Of a stretch of DNA of 22,461 nt, positions 4,350 to 21,767 are shown in pieces (within the stretch, counting starts at the first letter, position 1; each line of letters begins with the position of its first letter). The stretch covers positions 1-22,461 of IMG/VR virus record IMGVR_UViG_3300030408_000021; one strand, given 5' to 3'. The notes beneath the pieces are model-generated. The model was not told the DNA's origin and searched no databases. It was given only the letters and a program-made list of their open reading frames with translations. Made by a program: the position numbers and the translations under genes. Source of the DNA: a virus.

Positions 4350-4856
4350 ATGAACCCAATTGGATTTCCTCTCGTGACGACGTTCGACGACGAGGCGCGC
4401 GCATCGACCGAGGTCATCGCCGCAGGCATGGGGCAGCAACACCGGGCTGTGATGCAACTTTTGAGGCGTCACATCGCTGCGCTGGAGCGTTTCGGGAGGG
4501 TGCAATTTGAAGTTGCATCCTTTGCGACCCGCGGCGGCGCGCAGCAGCGCGAGATTGCCCGGCTCAACGAACGTCAAGCAATGCTGCTCATCACCATGAT
4601 GCGCAACACCGACCGCGTTGTGGACTTCAAGGTTTCGCTTGTGGCTGAGTTTGCCAGAACGCGCGAAGCCCTGGCCCAGCGCAATCAGTCGCTGTGGCAG
4701 CAAATGCAAGCGCTGATCGCGCGAGAGGTCGAGTCCAAGGTGCGCGCCTCGTTCGGCTCGCACCTGATGCTGGAACGCAAGCGCGACATCCCCCTTTTTG
4801 ACGAGCAGCGCGAGCGACTGGAGTCGCTGATCCAGCCGCCGCTGTTCCTCAACTGA
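4350..4856 (+). CDS. rha: Rha-type phage regulatory protein
   Basis: A 168-residue protein of the Rha family. Rha of lambdoid phages carries a winged-helix-like DNA-binding domain and has been linked to regulation or to interference with phage growth in some hosts. The diagnostic pattern is visible: QHRAVMQLLRRHIAALERFG at about residues 29-48, then LNERQAMLLITMMRNTDRVV near 73-92, then a helix FKVSLVAEFARTREAL. The C-terminal 60 residues are helical and charged and do not match the Rha core. The gene is unusual here: it separates sheath from tube, has its own Shine-Dalgarno sequence, and is bounded by terminators on both sides, so it looks like an inserted, separately controlled unit. A direct role in tail assembly is not suggested by the sequence. 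Confidence 0.75.
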   Translation: MNPIGFPLVTTFDDEARASTEVIAAGMGQQHRAVMQLLRRHIAALERFGRVQFEVASFATRGGAQQREIARLNERQAMLLITMMRNTDRVVDFKVSLVAEFARTREALAQRNQSLWQQMQALIAREVESKVRASFGSHLMLERKRDIPLFDEQRERLESLIQPPLFLN

Positions 4857-5690: not shown

Positions 5691-5857
5691 ACCACGGCCC
5701 CTTGCGCGAAGCCCTTTGGCTGGTGCACAACGGCATACCGTGGGACGTGGCCATGGAGATGGATGAGGCGCTTCGCTCGGCCTGCGCGATCACGTTCAGC
5801 GAGTTCAACGGCCACACGTTCAACCAATCGACCATGCGGTTTGAGGAGCAGAAGTGA
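5355..5857 (+). CDS. Tail assembly chaperone, -1 frameshifted long form
   Basis: The zero frame reads GTA AAA AAG CCC TGA at 5676-5690. The heptamer A AAA AAG (5678-5684) is the classic bacterial -1 slippery sequence in the correct register. A slip back by one base at 5684 continues as A-L-N-H-G-P-L-R-E-A-L-W and stays open to TGA 5855-5857, giving about 167 residues. The extension has a coherent, non-random composition, including WLVHNGIPWDVAMEMDEALR, and contains no start codon with a good ribosome-binding site near its beginning. It ends overlapping GTG 5854 of the next gene. This is the G-T arrangement known from lambda and P2-like phages. A downstream stimulatory structure was not worked out. 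Confidence 0.85.
5678..5684 (+). promoter_or_regulatory. Slippery heptamer A AAA AAG for -1 frameshifting
   Basis: Six A residues followed by G lie in the zero-frame register X XXY YYZ, four bases ahead of the chaperone stop codon. It sets the ratio of short to long tail chaperone, which in related phages is essential for tail assembly. Confidence 0.85.
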
Positions 5858-6348
5858 ACCTGACGCAATTCGCTGGGCTGCTGGAGAAAATGGCGGTGCC
5901 TGCTGCGGCTGTCGCCGCGCTGGATACTGCGGCCCGGTCCATCGAGGTCGAGGCCAAGAGCGAGATCGGAACCTATCAGCGCGACAACATGGGGCCGTTT
6001 GCGCCGTGGGAAGAACTCAAGCAGGCGACGCAACGCGAACGCGAGCGCCTTGGCTTCACACCGAACGATCCCTTGTTGCGCACCGGTGATCTTCGGGACT
6101 CCATCAGCCATGAGACGCACGGCCTTGAGGCGGTGGTCGGATCAACCTCTCAGGTGATGGTCTGGCAGGAACTGGGCACCGAGACGATCCCGCCGCGCTC
6201 CGTGCTGGGATTGGCTGCGCAGCGGCGCGAGCGCCAGGTGGTGAAGCTGATCGGCGCTGCGGTGATGAGCGAACTGATGGGTGACAGTATTACGCGGCTG
6301 CACGCAGGGCAGACCGCGTTGCTTTCTACACCCTACGAAAGGCCGTAA
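5854..6348 (+). CDS. Tail completion / virion morphogenesis protein, HK97 gp10 or P2 gpS type
   Basis: A 164-residue protein starting at GTG, which overlaps the stop of the frameshifted chaperone. The pattern SRG-like is absent, but the family features are clear: a helical N-terminus (AALDTAARSIEVEAKSEIG), FAPWEELKQATQRERERLG, then LLRTGDLRDSISHE and VVGSTSQVMVWQELGTETIP followed by PRSVLGLA. The 'LLRTGdLr.Si' and 'G....PPR..lG.A' blocks are shared by gp10/gpG/gpS morphogenesis proteins, which join or complete heads and tails. Its 3' end overlaps the minus-strand membrane gene by 23 bases, so the accessory insertion abuts it without removing its stop. Confidence 0.78.
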   Translation: MNLTQFAGLLEKMAVPAAAVAALDTAARSIEVEAKSEIGTYQRDNMGPFAPWEELKQATQRERERLGFTPNDPLLRTGDLRDSISHETHGLEAVVGSTSQVMVWQELGTETIPPRSVLGLAAQRRERQVVKLIGAAVMSELMGDSITRLHAGQTALLSTPYERP

Positions 6349-6559
6349 AGATTGCCGCAAGCATGAAGGCGAGCGCCACAACCATGAAAGTGGCGGCGAA
6401 CTTGCCCATGGTGCCGTCGGTCCAAAAGCCCCAGACCACGATCCCAAAAAACGCGAATAGCAGAAACACGATAGGGAAAAGGATCAGGGCGCCAGCGATG
6501 GCCGCAAAGGTCAAGATGGGGCCTGGGCGCGATTGACGAGGAAAAGGCCAATTTTTCAT
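6326..6559 (-). CDS. Small two-helix membrane protein (moron cassette)
   Basis: A 77-residue protein on the minus strand with two strongly hydrophobic segments, about residues 15-46 (long, possibly one tilted helix or two) and 54-74, a basic N-terminus (MKNWPFPRQSRPG) and the C-terminus FRRV. It is predicted to be an inner-membrane protein. I do not recognise a family. Its ATG overlaps the TGA of the lipoprotein gene (ATGA), so the two are translationally coupled. It runs against the tail genes and overlaps the end of the morphogenesis gene by 23 bases. It may act with the lipoprotein in the lysogen, for example against incoming phage. This is inference. Confidence 0.7.
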   Translation of the reverse strand: MKNWPFPRQSRPGPILTFAAIAGALILFPIVFLLFAFFGIVVWGFWTDGTMGKFAATFMVVALAFMLAAIFTAFRRV

Positions 6560-7017
6560 TGTTGCTCTCCAAGGTAATTTTGCGCCATTGATTTGATGCA
6601 GTCTTGATATTTAGATTCGCTACCAGACTCAAGGTATTTATTGCAATAAGTTGCATGCTTCATGTAATTGGCGTAATTCTCGGCGCCTTTCTGCATGGCG
6701 TTCTGCATGATGTCGCGGAAAGCAAATGCAAAACTTCCTGGCGGCGCATCCCAAACCATATTATTTCCGTCAAAGACGACATGAACGGGTACTTCTTCCT
6801 GTTGCCCTTTGTATAAAACTGTGACGATGCCCTGGTAGTTGTTTCCGTCGCTGTGCGTCAAAATGACATTTTGAACGGTCATTCCAAGCTTTGAAAGCTG
6901 GTCATCCGAGTTGATCTTTTGTGTAAATGAAGTTTTGACCTGATTTTGCAGGTCTGAAATAGAAGGCGAGCACCCGGCCATTAATGCCACCATTAGGCAC
7001 AGTAGAACGTATTTCAT
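6556..7017 (-). CDS. Lipoprotein (moron cassette)
   Basis: A 153-residue lipoprotein. The reading frame extends upstream to 7107, but ATG 7017 starts a textbook lipoprotein signal, MKYVLLCLMVALMAGC, with the lipid-modified Cys at residue 16. Ser at +2 suggests the outer membrane rather than retention in the inner membrane. GAGGGG upstream serves as ribosome-binding site. The mature part is a small mixed fold: helix (SDLQNQVKTSFTQKI), beta strands (NYQGIVTVLYKGQQEEVPVH), a DAPPGSFAF stretch and a helical tail with two Cys (YCNKYL, YQDCIK), which may pair. The gene is visibly AT-rich (21-22 GC per 60 bases in two lines counted), unlike all tail genes around it, and is oriented against them: signs of a transferred moron expressed in the lysogen. 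Confidence 0.78.
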   Translation of the reverse strand: MKYVLLCLMVALMAGCSPSISDLQNQVKTSFTQKINSDDQLSKLGMTVQNVILTHSDGNNYQGIVTVLYKGQQEEVPVHVVFDGNNMVWDAPPGSFAFAFRDIMQNAMQKGAENYANYMKHATYCNKYLESGSESKYQDCIKSMAQNYLGEQQ

Positions 7018-7026
7018 ATACCCCTC

Positions 7027-8877
7027 ATGTTTGAAGCCTACAAAATCGGAATCAAGCTGTCCCTGATCGACGGCGTGACCAGCGGGATTCTTGCGCTCGC
7101 TGGTCACTTCCGCACCGTCAGCCGCGAGGTTGACACACTACAGGGAAAGCTCGATCGATTCAAGGCGATGGGCGCGATTGGCCTTAGCACCACGCTTGTT
7201 GGCGCCGGAATGCTGAAGTCCATGCAATCCTCGCTGGACGCGGCAAAAGCCTATCAACTGCGCGTGTCCCGCATGCAGCAGATGGGCATGACGCCGCAGG
7301 ACATGCAGGACGCGCAGCGCGCCGCATGGTCGGCATCCAAGGCGACGCCAACATCTTCGCCTACCGACGCGCTGGACGCCATCATGCACTTGCGCATGGT
7401 GTTCGGACACACGGCGGACGCCCTGCAAAACCTGCCGACCATTCTGCGCATGGAAGGCGTTCTATCGAATGCGGGGCTGCGCGGCGATCAGTCCTACGAG
7501 ATCGCCAAATCGCTCGAAATGATCGGGGCCACCAAGACCCCGGCCATGTTCGCCGAATATGCAGACGCCATCACGAAAGGCATCATTGCCGCGGGCGGCA
7601 AGGTCACTGCGCAAGATTATTTGTCGGCCATCAAGTATGGGCGAACCGCAGCACAAGGGTGGGACAAATCGTTTATTGAGTACTACCTGCCGACGTTGAT
7701 TCAAGAAATGAAGTCGCGTGGCGGATCGGGCGGCGCAAGTGGTGGTCCTGGCAACCCGTTGATGTCCATGTATGGCGCCGTCGTGCAGGGCACCGTTCCG
7801 CAAAAGGCGCTCAAGGTCTGGGATTCGCTAGGGCTGATTGACCAGTCCAAAGTCGTTTGGACAAAATCGCACATGATGCGAGGCCTGGAGCCGGGCGGCA
7901 TCAAGGGATGGCAGGAGTTCATGTCCAACCCCTTCCAGTGGACGCAGCAATATCTGCTGCCAGCATTGGTGCAGGCAGGCTACACCACGCACGCGCAGCA
8001 ATTGCAGGCGATTTCCTATCTGTTCCCAAATCGCACAGCCGGGTTTGTGGCGACGCAGATGACCGAGCAAGCCTGGAAGTTCGAGCGTGATCGTCGGCTG
8101 ATCGAAAACACCAAGGGCATCAACAACTATGCCCAGGTGATGCAGATGTCTCCGCAGATGCAGGAAGAAGCCCTGCACAAGCGATTTGAGGCGCTGCGCA
8201 CCATCGTTGGACTGCAACTCATCCCCATCCTGTTGAACGTGCTCCCTCCGTTGATCAGCTTCTTGCAGAAGATTGTCAACTTCGGGCGCGAGCATCCCAC
8301 AGCAATGAAAGACCTGGTGCTGCTGTTTGGGGCGCTTGGCACGCTGCTGACCGTGGGGGGCGCCATCACTTCGTTTGTCGCCTCCATCCGCATCATTTCC
8401 ATGGCGTTTCCCGCTTTGCAGCTTGCTATTGGCGCGGCTGGAGGATCCGGGTTGCTCGGAGCAATTGTGGCGATGACGCGCAGCATCCCGGGTGCTGCGG
8501 ATGGGCTGGGCATGCTCATCGGGAAGATCGGGCTTCTGGCAGGAGTCGGCGTCGCCTCCTACGAGTTGGCAAAAAAGCTCGGCGCGGACAAGTTGGGTTC
8601 TTGGATCGGAAGCCATCTTTTCGATCTGCTGCACCCGGGGTATGCAAATTACAACCCGAACGCTCCCTCTAGCTTGCAGTCTCATCCCTTCAAGATTGAT
8701 TCGATCGCGGCCGGTTCCAAGCAAACAACCGTGCACCATACGCACGTTCACCTTGACGGCAAGAAAATCGCTGATGTGGTGACACATCACCAGGCGAACA
8801 CCCTGCAACAGCCGCCATCTGGGCCTTCGCCGTCGATTTCCGGTTTCACGCTGCCTTATCCGTCGCAGTCGTATTGA
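7027..8877 (+). CDS. Tail tape measure protein
   Basis: A 616-residue protein that sets tail length and takes part in DNA delivery. The N-terminus MFEAYKIGIKLSLIDGV is typical for short tape measures of this tail type, which supports ATG 7027. The first 390 residues are mainly helical, with a Gly-rich break (GGSGGASGGPGNP) near 235. Hydrophobic stretches at about 393-418, 427-484 and 492-513 could cross the host inner membrane on injection. HHTHVHLDGKKIADVV at about 569 is a motif often seen near the end of tape measures. No good Shine-Dalgarno sequence lies before the ATG, and only nine bases separate it from the divergent lipoprotein start. At about 0.15 nm per residue the tail would be near 90 nm, a rough inference. 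Confidence 0.88.
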   Translation: MFEAYKIGIKLSLIDGVTSGILALAGHFRTVSREVDTLQGKLDRFKAMGAIGLSTTLVGAGMLKSMQSSLDAAKAYQLRVSRMQQMGMTPQDMQDAQRAAWSASKATPTSSPTDALDAIMHLRMVFGHTADALQNLPTILRMEGVLSNAGLRGDQSYEIAKSLEMIGATKTPAMFAEYADAITKGIIAAGGKVTAQDYLSAIKYGRTAAQGWDKSFIEYYLPTLIQEMKSRGGSGGASGGPGNPLMSMYGAVVQGTVPQKALKVWDSLGLIDQSKVVWTKSHMMRGLEPGGIKGWQEFMSNPFQWTQQYLLPALVQAGYTTHAQQLQAISYLFPNRTAGFVATQMTEQAWKFERDRRLIENTKGINNYAQVMQMSPQMQEEALHKRFEALRTIVGLQLIPILLNVLPPLISFLQKIVNFGREHPTAMKDLVLLFGALGTLLTVGGAITSFVASIRIISMAFPALQLAIGAAGGSGLLGAIVAMTRSIPGAADGLGMLIGKIGLLAGVGVASYELAKKLGADKLGSWIGSHLFDLLHPGYANYNPNAPSSLQSHPFKIDSIAAGSKQTTVHHTHVHLDGKKIADVVTHHQANTLQQPPSGPSPSISGFTLPYPSQSY

Positions 8878-13868: not shown

Positions 13869-15155
13869 ATGCACCGTCCAATCGTTTACACAACCGAGCA
13901 GGGCCGCAGCACTGACTTCCTGTTCGCCGCGCAGCAATCCATGGTGGGGCTGGCCAAGCTCGCCAAGGTCATGCTGGGCTCATCGACCGTGGTCGAGGGA
14001 TTGGCCGTCACACCGACCAGCCCGGCCAGTCTGCAAGTCAATGTGGCGCAGGGCCAGATCTATCAGATGGAGCCGCTTGAGGCGACCACCTACGGCGTGC
14101 TCCCGGCCGACACGACCGACGCCATCCTCAAGCAGGGCCTGTCGATGGCATCTCAGACCATCAACTGCCCCGCGCCCACCACCAACGGCTACAGCATCAA
14201 CTACCTGATTCAGGCGACTTATCAGGACGTTGATGCCGTGCCTGCCGTGCTGCCGTATTTCAACAGCGCCAATCCATCGCAGCCGCTCTCTGGCCAGAAC
14301 AACACGGGCGCAGCCCAGGCCACGCAGCGGCAGGGGGTGTGCGTCGTCGCCGTCAAGGCCGGAGCGGCTGCCGCCACGGGCAGCCAAACCACGCCAGCCC
14401 CCGATACCGGCTATGTGGGCCTGTACGTTGTGACGGTGGCCTACGGGCAGACCCAGATCAACGCTGGGAATATCGCGCAATACAGCGCGGCGCCCATCCT
14501 CACCAATTTGCTGCAGATGGTGCAGCAAAGCGCGACGATCACCGCCTCCGACACCGGCACCGCGAACGCCTATGCGATGGCGCTCACGCCGCCGATTGCC
14601 GCTTACACGCCGGGGATGCTGCTGTCGCTGCAAGGCATCAAGACGTCCAACACCGGGGCGAGCACGCTGGCTGTCAATGGGCTTGCCGCCCTGCCGATTC
14701 AAGGGCCTGGTGGCACTGGGTTGCAAGGAGGTGAGCTAGTTGCCGGGTATGGCGCGATTCTGCGAGTCAACGCCGGGGCGACGGCGTTTGAATTGATCCA
14801 GACGACGGGCGGGAGCTTGCCGGTGAAAGCTGGAACCGCCAGCAATCACGCGGTCAACCTCGGGCAGTTTCCATATAGCATGGCGGCAAATGGCTACACA
14901 AAACTGCCGAACGGCTTGATTATTCAATGGGGGAGTTTAATGGGATCGTCAAGTGGGGGCGTATTAGTTACGTTTCCTGTAGCTTTTCCTAATTCGGTGC
15001 TAACATTGCAAGCAATTGACAATAATGCATTAAACGCACAAGGTAGCGCAAACGCTGTTTATTTTAGTAAAACCGGTTTTACTATTGCGGCATACAATAA
15101 AAGTTCCAGCACTTACTATCAAGATAATCTTACGTGGCTTGCTATTGGTTATTAA
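13869..15155 (+). CDS. Tail fibre protein
   Basis: A 428-residue receptor-binding fibre. The N-terminus (VYTTEQGRSTDFLFAAQQSM, LGSSTVVEGLAVTPTSPASL) attaches to the baseplate in related phage fibres, followed by a domain rich in beta strands (LQVNVAQGQIYQMEPLEATT, INYLIQATYQDVD). A shaft segment around 235-330 has the pattern PGMLLSLQGIKTSNTGASTL. The last 90 residues carry ANGYTKLPNGLIIQWG and end in TWLAIGY, the pattern of the gp53-like C-terminal tail-fibre domain that forms the binding tip. GGAG at 13860 supports ATG 13869. Base composition drops sharply from about 14871: lines from 15001 and 15061 contain 23 and 20 GC in 60 bases, against 39 in 60 earlier in the same gene, so the tip was probably acquired separately. 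Confidence 0.87.
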   Translation: MHRPIVYTTEQGRSTDFLFAAQQSMVGLAKLAKVMLGSSTVVEGLAVTPTSPASLQVNVAQGQIYQMEPLEATTYGVLPADTTDAILKQGLSMASQTINCPAPTTNGYSINYLIQATYQDVDAVPAVLPYFNSANPSQPLSGQNNTGAAQATQRQGVCVVAVKAGAAAATGSQTTPAPDTGYVGLYVVTVAYGQTQINAGNIAQYSAAPILTNLLQMVQQSATITASDTGTANAYAMALTPPIAAYTPGMLLSLQGIKTSNTGASTLAVNGLAALPIQGPGGTGLQGGELVAGYGAILRVNAGATAFELIQTTGGSLPVKAGTASNHAVNLGQFPYSMAANGYTKLPNGLIIQWGSLMGSSSGGVLVTFPVAFPNSVLTLQAIDNNALNAQGSANAVYFSKTGFTIAAYNKSSSTYYQDNLTWLAIGY

Positions 15156-21281: not shown

Positions 21282-21767
21282 ATGAATTCATTCGCCATCG
21301 CCATCAATCGCCTTCTCGGTAACGAGGGCGGCTATGTCAACGACCCGGCAGACCCTGGCGGCGCGACAAATTGGGGAATCAGCCAGCGCAGCTATCCAAG
21401 TTTTGACATCGCTTCGCTCACCCGCGATCAGGCGATTGCCATCTACAAGTCCGACTTCTGGGACAAGATCGACGGCGATGCGATGCCTCCAGGTGTCGGC
21501 TTCCAATCCCTCGATTTTGCTGTGAATAGCGGCATACAGACGGCGCTGCGCGCCCTGCAGCGGGCTATCGGTGTTGCCGATGATGGCGTGTTCGGCCCGG
21601 TGAGTCTTGCGGCTTTGAAGGCCGCCGATCCTGCCGACACGATCATGCGGTTACTCGCTGAGCGCCTGATGTTTATGACGGGTCTGTCAGGCTGGGCATC
21701 GTTCGGTCGCGGCTGGGCGCGGCGCATCGCCGCCGATCTTCGCTTCGGAGCAGCCGATACGCCATGA
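21282..21767 (+). CDS. Endolysin, GH108-type muramidase
   Basis: A 161-residue peptidoglycan hydrolase. The start FAIAINRLLGNEGGYVNDPA followed by DPGGATNWGIS is the GH108 signature, with Glu15 in N-E-G-G-Y as the catalytic acid. The middle helix (RDQAIAIYKSDFWDKIDGD, FQSLDFAVNSG) is also typical. Residues from about 100, with GVADDGVFGPVSLAALKA, belong to the PG_binding_3 C-terminal part. It has no signal peptide, so release to the periplasm depends on a holin. GGAG 8 bases before ATG 21282 supports the start. Length fits the family. It opens the lysis group, and its TGA overlaps the next ATG. Confidence 0.92.
   Translation: MNSFAIAINRLLGNEGGYVNDPADPGGATNWGISQRSYPSFDIASLTRDQAIAIYKSDFWDKIDGDAMPPGVGFQSLDFAVNSGIQTALRALQRAIGVADDGVFGPVSLAALKAADPADTIMRLLAERLMFMTGLSGWASFGRGWARRIAADLRFGAADTP

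Follow-up and report, generated by a model that had tools for sequence, protein, structure and literature searches.

We analyzed a 22,461-nucleotide (nt) stretch of viral DNA, IMG/VR record IMGVR_UViG_3300030408_000021, positions 1 to 22,461 (hereafter, the window). This 22.5-kb window carries a contractile-tail operon that encodes sheath, tube, chaperone, neck, tape-measure protein (TMP), hub, and baseplate J. The operon is interrupted between the neck and TMP genes by two minus-strand genes, one for a lipoprotein and one for a two-helix membrane protein, which an earlier note on this DNA had interpreted as a moron and candidate superinfection-exclusion pair. We find that the neck-TMP junction is a recurrent home of envelope-targeted proteins in related phages and that the two genes have different histories: the membrane protein is native to the slot, while the lipoprotein is recently acquired cargo. 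Superinfection exclusion at the stage of DNA entry is the best-supported function of slot proteins on the comparative analysis, and we rate its chances as about even.

Nine tail junctions were mapped in 105 related loci. In 60% of them, the neck and TMP genes were separated by 250 nt or more, and in 30% by 600 nt or more, with a maximum of 5.5 kb; the eight other junctions reached 250 nt in 0 to 10% of loci. As judged by a hydropathy rule rather than a trained predictor, 63 of 103 slot genes encode exported or membrane proteins versus 7 of 50 genes at all other junctions (P = 1.8e-8), which bears out the view that the site is a regular location for envelope-targeted proteins. When counted by locus, such proteins were present in the slot in 48 of 56 cases and elsewhere in 6 of 35 (P = 6.6e-11). 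In an earlier count, where redundancy was removed by TMP identity, 44 of 53 loci had an exported protein, whereas the tally was 41 of 261 for shadow open reading frames (ORFs) and 5 of 309 for structural genes. The survey relied on a simple gene caller that made errors in some loci. In three contigs (L008, L011, and L012), it overlooked the native protein and predicted false ORFs on the plus strand, so exported proteins in the slot are probably undercounted.

Slot proteins are diverse in sequence but mostly exported. The exported slot gene lies on the minus strand in 34 of 53 gapped loci, whereas slot genes of enteric loci use the plus strand. A Cys-containing signal-peptide family has the same location in enteric and Pseudomonas loci, on the plus strand in the former and on the minus strand in the latter; thus, its place is constant but its orientation varies. 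A fold search with slot family 1 returned weak SH3-like matches and nothing else. The neck-TMP slot is not described in the open-licence papers that we searched.

In the window, the slot is bordered by the neck gene (virion morphogenesis or tail completion; 5854..6348, plus strand; phrog_26, 4.9e-12, with a weak PF05069 match) and by the TMP gene (7027..8877, plus strand, 616 amino acids; phrog_28, E = 4.9e-19). The ORF map and these neighbors place both minus-strand ORFs where the earlier note had reported them, at 6326-7017 beside the TMP gene. The lipoprotein ORF (6556..7017, 153 amino acids) begins with the signal sequence MKYVLLCLMVALMAG followed by Cys16 and a Ser at position +2. Its stop codon overlaps the start of the membrane-protein ORF (6326..6559, 77 amino acids, MKNWPFP family) in a 4-nt ATGA (6556..6559, minus strand), a possible translational coupling judging by its sequence. 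The 3′ end of the membrane-protein gene in turn overlaps the neck gene over 23 nt. The lipoprotein and TMP genes diverge from start codons that are 9 nt apart (7018..7026), and within this spacer, the lipoprotein ATG is preceded on the minus strand by the Shine-Dalgarno–like GAGGGGTAT. A further minus-strand ATG overlaps the TMP start in CATG and opens a four-codon ORF, M-R-G-I-stop (7015-7029), whose stop overlaps the lipoprotein start; it is possibly a remnant of an earlier start region.

The membrane-protein ORF was found at the same site, adjoining the TMP gene, in seven of seven distinct related contigs. L008, L011, and L012 were reached via the sheath of the window and are its nearest contigs (best alignments of 59 to 69% for TMP and 66 to 68% for neck), while a search with the membrane protein added L173, L175, L176, and L177; L172 and L174 are duplicates of L011 and L012. 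Homologs of the membrane protein are thus linked to TMP genes, as the earlier note had anticipated. Three aligned copies are 46 to 50% identical to that of the window. Where computable, the dN/dS ratio among the relatives' copies lay between 0 and 0.30 except for a single pair at 0.67, and these copies are under purifying selection. Conservation at the same place in seven contigs and the mostly low dN/dS values put the ORF beyond chance. In L008, L011, and L012, the membrane-protein and TMP start codons are 10 to 11 nt apart (L011 and L012 both read AGGAATCTCC), and the spacer between them carries Shine-Dalgarno–like sequences on both strands.

In the slots of all seven contigs, the membrane protein stands alone. 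The lipoprotein gene of the window occupies exactly the spacer that parts the membrane-protein and TMP starts in these relatives, and its GC content of 0.437 (GC3 of 0.50) is lower than in any of the 331 structural-gene stretches of equal length that were examined (minimum 0.504). With a GC content of 0.556 and GC3 of 0.69, the membrane-protein gene is inside the usual range of the phage. The lack of the lipoprotein in the relatives, its low GC content, and its placement in the spacer therefore identify it as recently acquired cargo and the membrane protein as native. The notion of a single imported moron pair has to be abandoned accordingly; as an extra gene of differing composition between genes that are adjacent in relatives, the lipoprotein gene by itself is in these respects like a moron. 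The pair had also been described as AT-rich. The counts given, 21 and 22 GC per 60 nt (lines 6601-6660 and 6901-6960), are correct, but the AT-richness is confined to the lipoprotein gene.

Scans of both slot proteins against Pfam, PHROGs, NCBIfam, and PADLOC yielded only noise, and no superinfection-exclusion family rose above it; the lipoprotein matched no curated family, with the Cor PHROG at just E = 0.88 over the signal peptide. No close relatives of the lipoprotein were present in the viral and genome contigs scanned. Profile scans of 289 Acidiphilium-class and 398 L124-phylum genomes, which included no positive control, revealed none either, and no DNA-level similarity of the window to known phages was found. 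The only lipoprotein homologs detected, by tblastn, were encoded by mycobacteriophages Tortellini and Xavia (30.7% identity over 86 amino acids, E = 7e-7) and one Mycolicibacterium plasmid. The common core extends from the anchor to a GSF motif, at 25 to 31% identity. Tortellini gp31 and Xavia gp33 are, like the window protein, membrane anchored; they differ in being held by a transmembrane helix with no lipobox, in lacking the C-terminal helices, and in having genes that adjoin the integrase of the lysogeny module and not a TMP gene. Tortellini gp31 adjoins both the integrase and the immunity cassette. A tendency of the lipoprotein itself to travel with TMP genes is therefore unsupported.

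An AlphaFold2 model of the lipoprotein, built on an alignment of two sequences (pLDDT 81.6), contains one helix, four strands, and two more helices. Residues about 17 to 99 are predicted to form an alpha plus four-strand cystatin/NTF2-like domain that precedes the two helices. Foldseek returned no match to the model below E = 0.001 and only cystatin/NTF2-like arrangements, and VIA Z scores against solved structures did not exceed 7.7, as is usual for common folds. A match to the colicin M immunity protein (2xgl; Z of 7.3, 2.7 Å over 75 residues) is a mere curiosity.

The gene at the border of the slot has diverged more than any other in the block: the median TMP identity is 26%, where that of the sheath is 60 to 85% and that of the tube, neck, and gene downstream of TMP is 50 to 56%. 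Judging from these identities, the TMP gene either is swapped or changes far more quickly than its neighbors, as an arms race would give.

Three considerations lead to superinfection exclusion at DNA entry as the favored function: slot proteins are varied but aimed at the envelope, the product of the adjoining TMP gene takes DNA across that envelope, and HK97 gp15 and P22 sieA, both proven exclusion systems, occupy comparable places. According to this model, the neck-TMP junction of a contractile-tailed phage group would serve as a slot for envelope proteins expressed in lysogens, and both window proteins would act in the prophage-bearing cell to exclude superinfecting phages. From its Ser at +2, the lipoprotein is predicted to be anchored in the outer membrane and to face the periplasm. 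The 77–amino acid protein has two hydrophobic segments, with peaks near residues 24-42 and 54-74, and by its predicted topology would form a hairpin in the inner membrane. We infer that, once expressed from the prophage, both proteins may obstruct the tape-measure/DNA conduit of a related phage as it infects and thereby keep its DNA out. The position of the lipoprotein's phage homolog beside an integrase and immunity cassette was counted in favor of this function. That a defense protein can read TMPs at the membrane is illustrated by SNIPE (PMC13190303).

The earlier note had named as precedents T5 Llp and Ltp, a prophage lipoprotein of Streptococcus phage TP-J34. The likeness to Ltp consists in the lipoprotein signal sequence and in the proposed target, which for Ltp is the TMP according to Bebeacua 2013 as cited in PMC10883804 and PMC3952083. 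However, the ltp gene is located in the lysogeny module and not beside the TMP gene (PMC3952083), a Protein Data Bank (PDB) sequence search with the lipoprotein gave no Ltp match at E up to 10, and Ltp is not among the listed fold matches of the model. The predicted folds (alpha, four strands, and two helices compared to the helical Ltp) appear to differ. Kinship with Ltp is thus unsupported.

In position, the window pair is closer to HK97 gp15 and the P22 immI/sieA region than to Ltp. HK97 gp15 blocks DNA injection, and phages evade it when their tail tube and TMP genes are exchanged (PMC10883804). Like gp15, whose gene is immediately upstream of the TMP gene, the 77–amino acid protein is small and presumably resides in the inner membrane, and its gene has that for the TMP as a neighbor; in the relatives, it abuts the TMP start. 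Unlike the window gene, gp15 is encoded on the same strand as the tail operon of a lambdoid phage with a long noncontractile tail; it is 62 amino acids long, with one hydrophobic segment and a charged C-terminal half, and by inspection has no evident similarity to the hairpin. P22 sieA shares the variable immI region, itself within the late operon, with arc, mnt, and ant (PMC8022706). The resemblance lies in this position within the late operon and in the Arc and antirepressor modules found in the same slot of relatives; the differences are that immI belongs to a short-tailed phage, where genes 16 and 9 flank it, and that the window slot has no Arc or Ant genes.

Several observations weigh against exclusion at DNA entry. 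Known TMP-targeting exclusion proteins mostly hit long noncontractile tails, and the window phage has a contractile sheath. Neither a sigma-70–like minus-strand promoter nor a terminator was detected around the gene pair. Tyrosine and serine integrases and the rve transposase were not found in the contig fragments of the closest relatives, so that lysogeny of the window's lineage is putative; a large number of the relatives with such a slot stem from records of bacterial genomes, which suggests prophages. A match between cargo and TMP type was tested and found no support: cargo families do not track TMP identity. Strict immunity against the phage's own TMP is unsupported because loci L057 and L060, with TMPs 93% identical, carry different cargo. 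Such swaps on near-identical TMPs argue instead that the targets would be the conduits of other phages.

The same independent swapping of cargo is expected if slot proteins mask an outer-membrane receptor in the manner of Cor or Llp, or increase host fitness through lysogenic conversion, with the TMP neighborhood merely a tolerated insertion site. The Ser at +2, which suggests the outer membrane, and the toxin-antitoxin–like, HTH, and nuclease-like genes in larger slots would also be accounted for. Yet a tolerated site does not explain why exported proteins fail to build up at other tail junctions or why proteins so diverse in sequence are mostly exported, and we consider this alternative unlikely, though it is the strongest competitor of exclusion.

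The membrane protein could instead have a role in the lytic cycle, in virion assembly or a TMP-coupled late envelope function, with the lipoprotein hitchhiking. Its constancy in the window's clade (seven of seven contigs) under purifying selection agrees with such a role, as does a second conserved small family, EWLADR..QYP, at the same place in 23 loci. But the membrane-protein gene is antisense to the late operon, and the neck-TMP gap is zero in 16 of 69 clusters, so that no such protein is needed for assembly in the group. A lytic-cycle role is therefore improbable.

A still smaller chance attaches to the absence of any selected function, i.e., to foreign DNA randomly inserted at a neutral site. 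The foreign composition of the lipoprotein gene and its absence from all relatives are what such an event would leave, but the ORF is intact, with its lipobox and Shine-Dalgarno–like sequence in place, is tied to its neighbors by ATGA and the 9-nt spacer, encodes a core that aligns to homologs, and sits in a slot with a strong functional bias. A lysis pair, to which a small membrane protein and a neighboring lipoprotein bear a superficial resemblance as inner-membrane i-spanin and outer-membrane o-spanin, is the least probable of all and was rejected, given a predicted two-helix hairpin without a periplasmic rod or domain, a lipoprotein modeled as a folded domain, a strand opposite to the late operon, an endolysin gene about 14 kb away (21282-21767), and seven relatives without the lipoprotein.

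Superinfection exclusion at the neck-TMP junction may extend beyond the window's clade. With somewhat less confidence than for exclusion itself, we tentatively propose a general exclusion slot in contractile-tailed phages of Alpha-, Beta-, and Gammaproteobacteria. It would combine a near-constant small membrane protein (of the MKNWPFP, EWLADR..QYP, or Pseudomonas type) divergent from the TMP start with interchangeable periplasmic or lipoprotein effectors and sometimes an Arc/Ant switch, and would be a trading site for DNA-entry policing, the contractile-tail counterpart of P22 immI and HK97 gp15. If so, neck-TMP position alone would predict exclusion proteins, mostly without family annotation, and dozens of candidates would become available for studying how such proteins stop the tape-measure/DNA conduit, here in contractile tails. 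A natural empty-site control is available in three inspected relatives, whose equivalent site has no lipoprotein gene.

The EWLADR..QYP family is previously undescribed and separate from the membrane-protein family of the window, with which it shares place and size. Its members have an N-terminal RVQEWLADRVSWVQYP-like motif and are always encoded on the minus strand of the neck-TMP slot, adjoining the TMP start (L066, L067, L068, L072, L075, L077, L087, L088, L091, L097, L122, and others); no confident member was found elsewhere. The contigs come from records that include Ralstonia, Aquitalea, Paludibacterium, Pseudomonas, Luteibacter, and Novosphingobium.

Five larger slots (L015, L022, L037, L089, and L097) contain genes for an Arc-type repressor and an AntA/Bro-N/KilAC antirepressor. 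The 5.5-kb slot of an Aquitalea aquatica prophage (L089, 12189-17668) has an Arc-type repressor, an AntA/KilAC antirepressor, and, by sequence, a HigBA-like toxin-antitoxin pair (14308-14874). Another A. aquatica prophage slot (L088, 12176-16337, 4.2 kb) holds several membrane proteins and further, unassigned genes. A Rhizobium prophage slot encodes a signal-peptide protein with a phospholipase D–like HxK motif stretch (L103, 12026-12568, plus strand); DrmC matches in the pooled PADLOC scan may stem from it. The window itself carries a second moron of the same operon, a Rha-like regulator gene between the sheath and tube genes (4350-4856, plus strand; phrog_518, E = 3.7e-33), at a junction that reaches at least 250 nt in just 6% of relatives.
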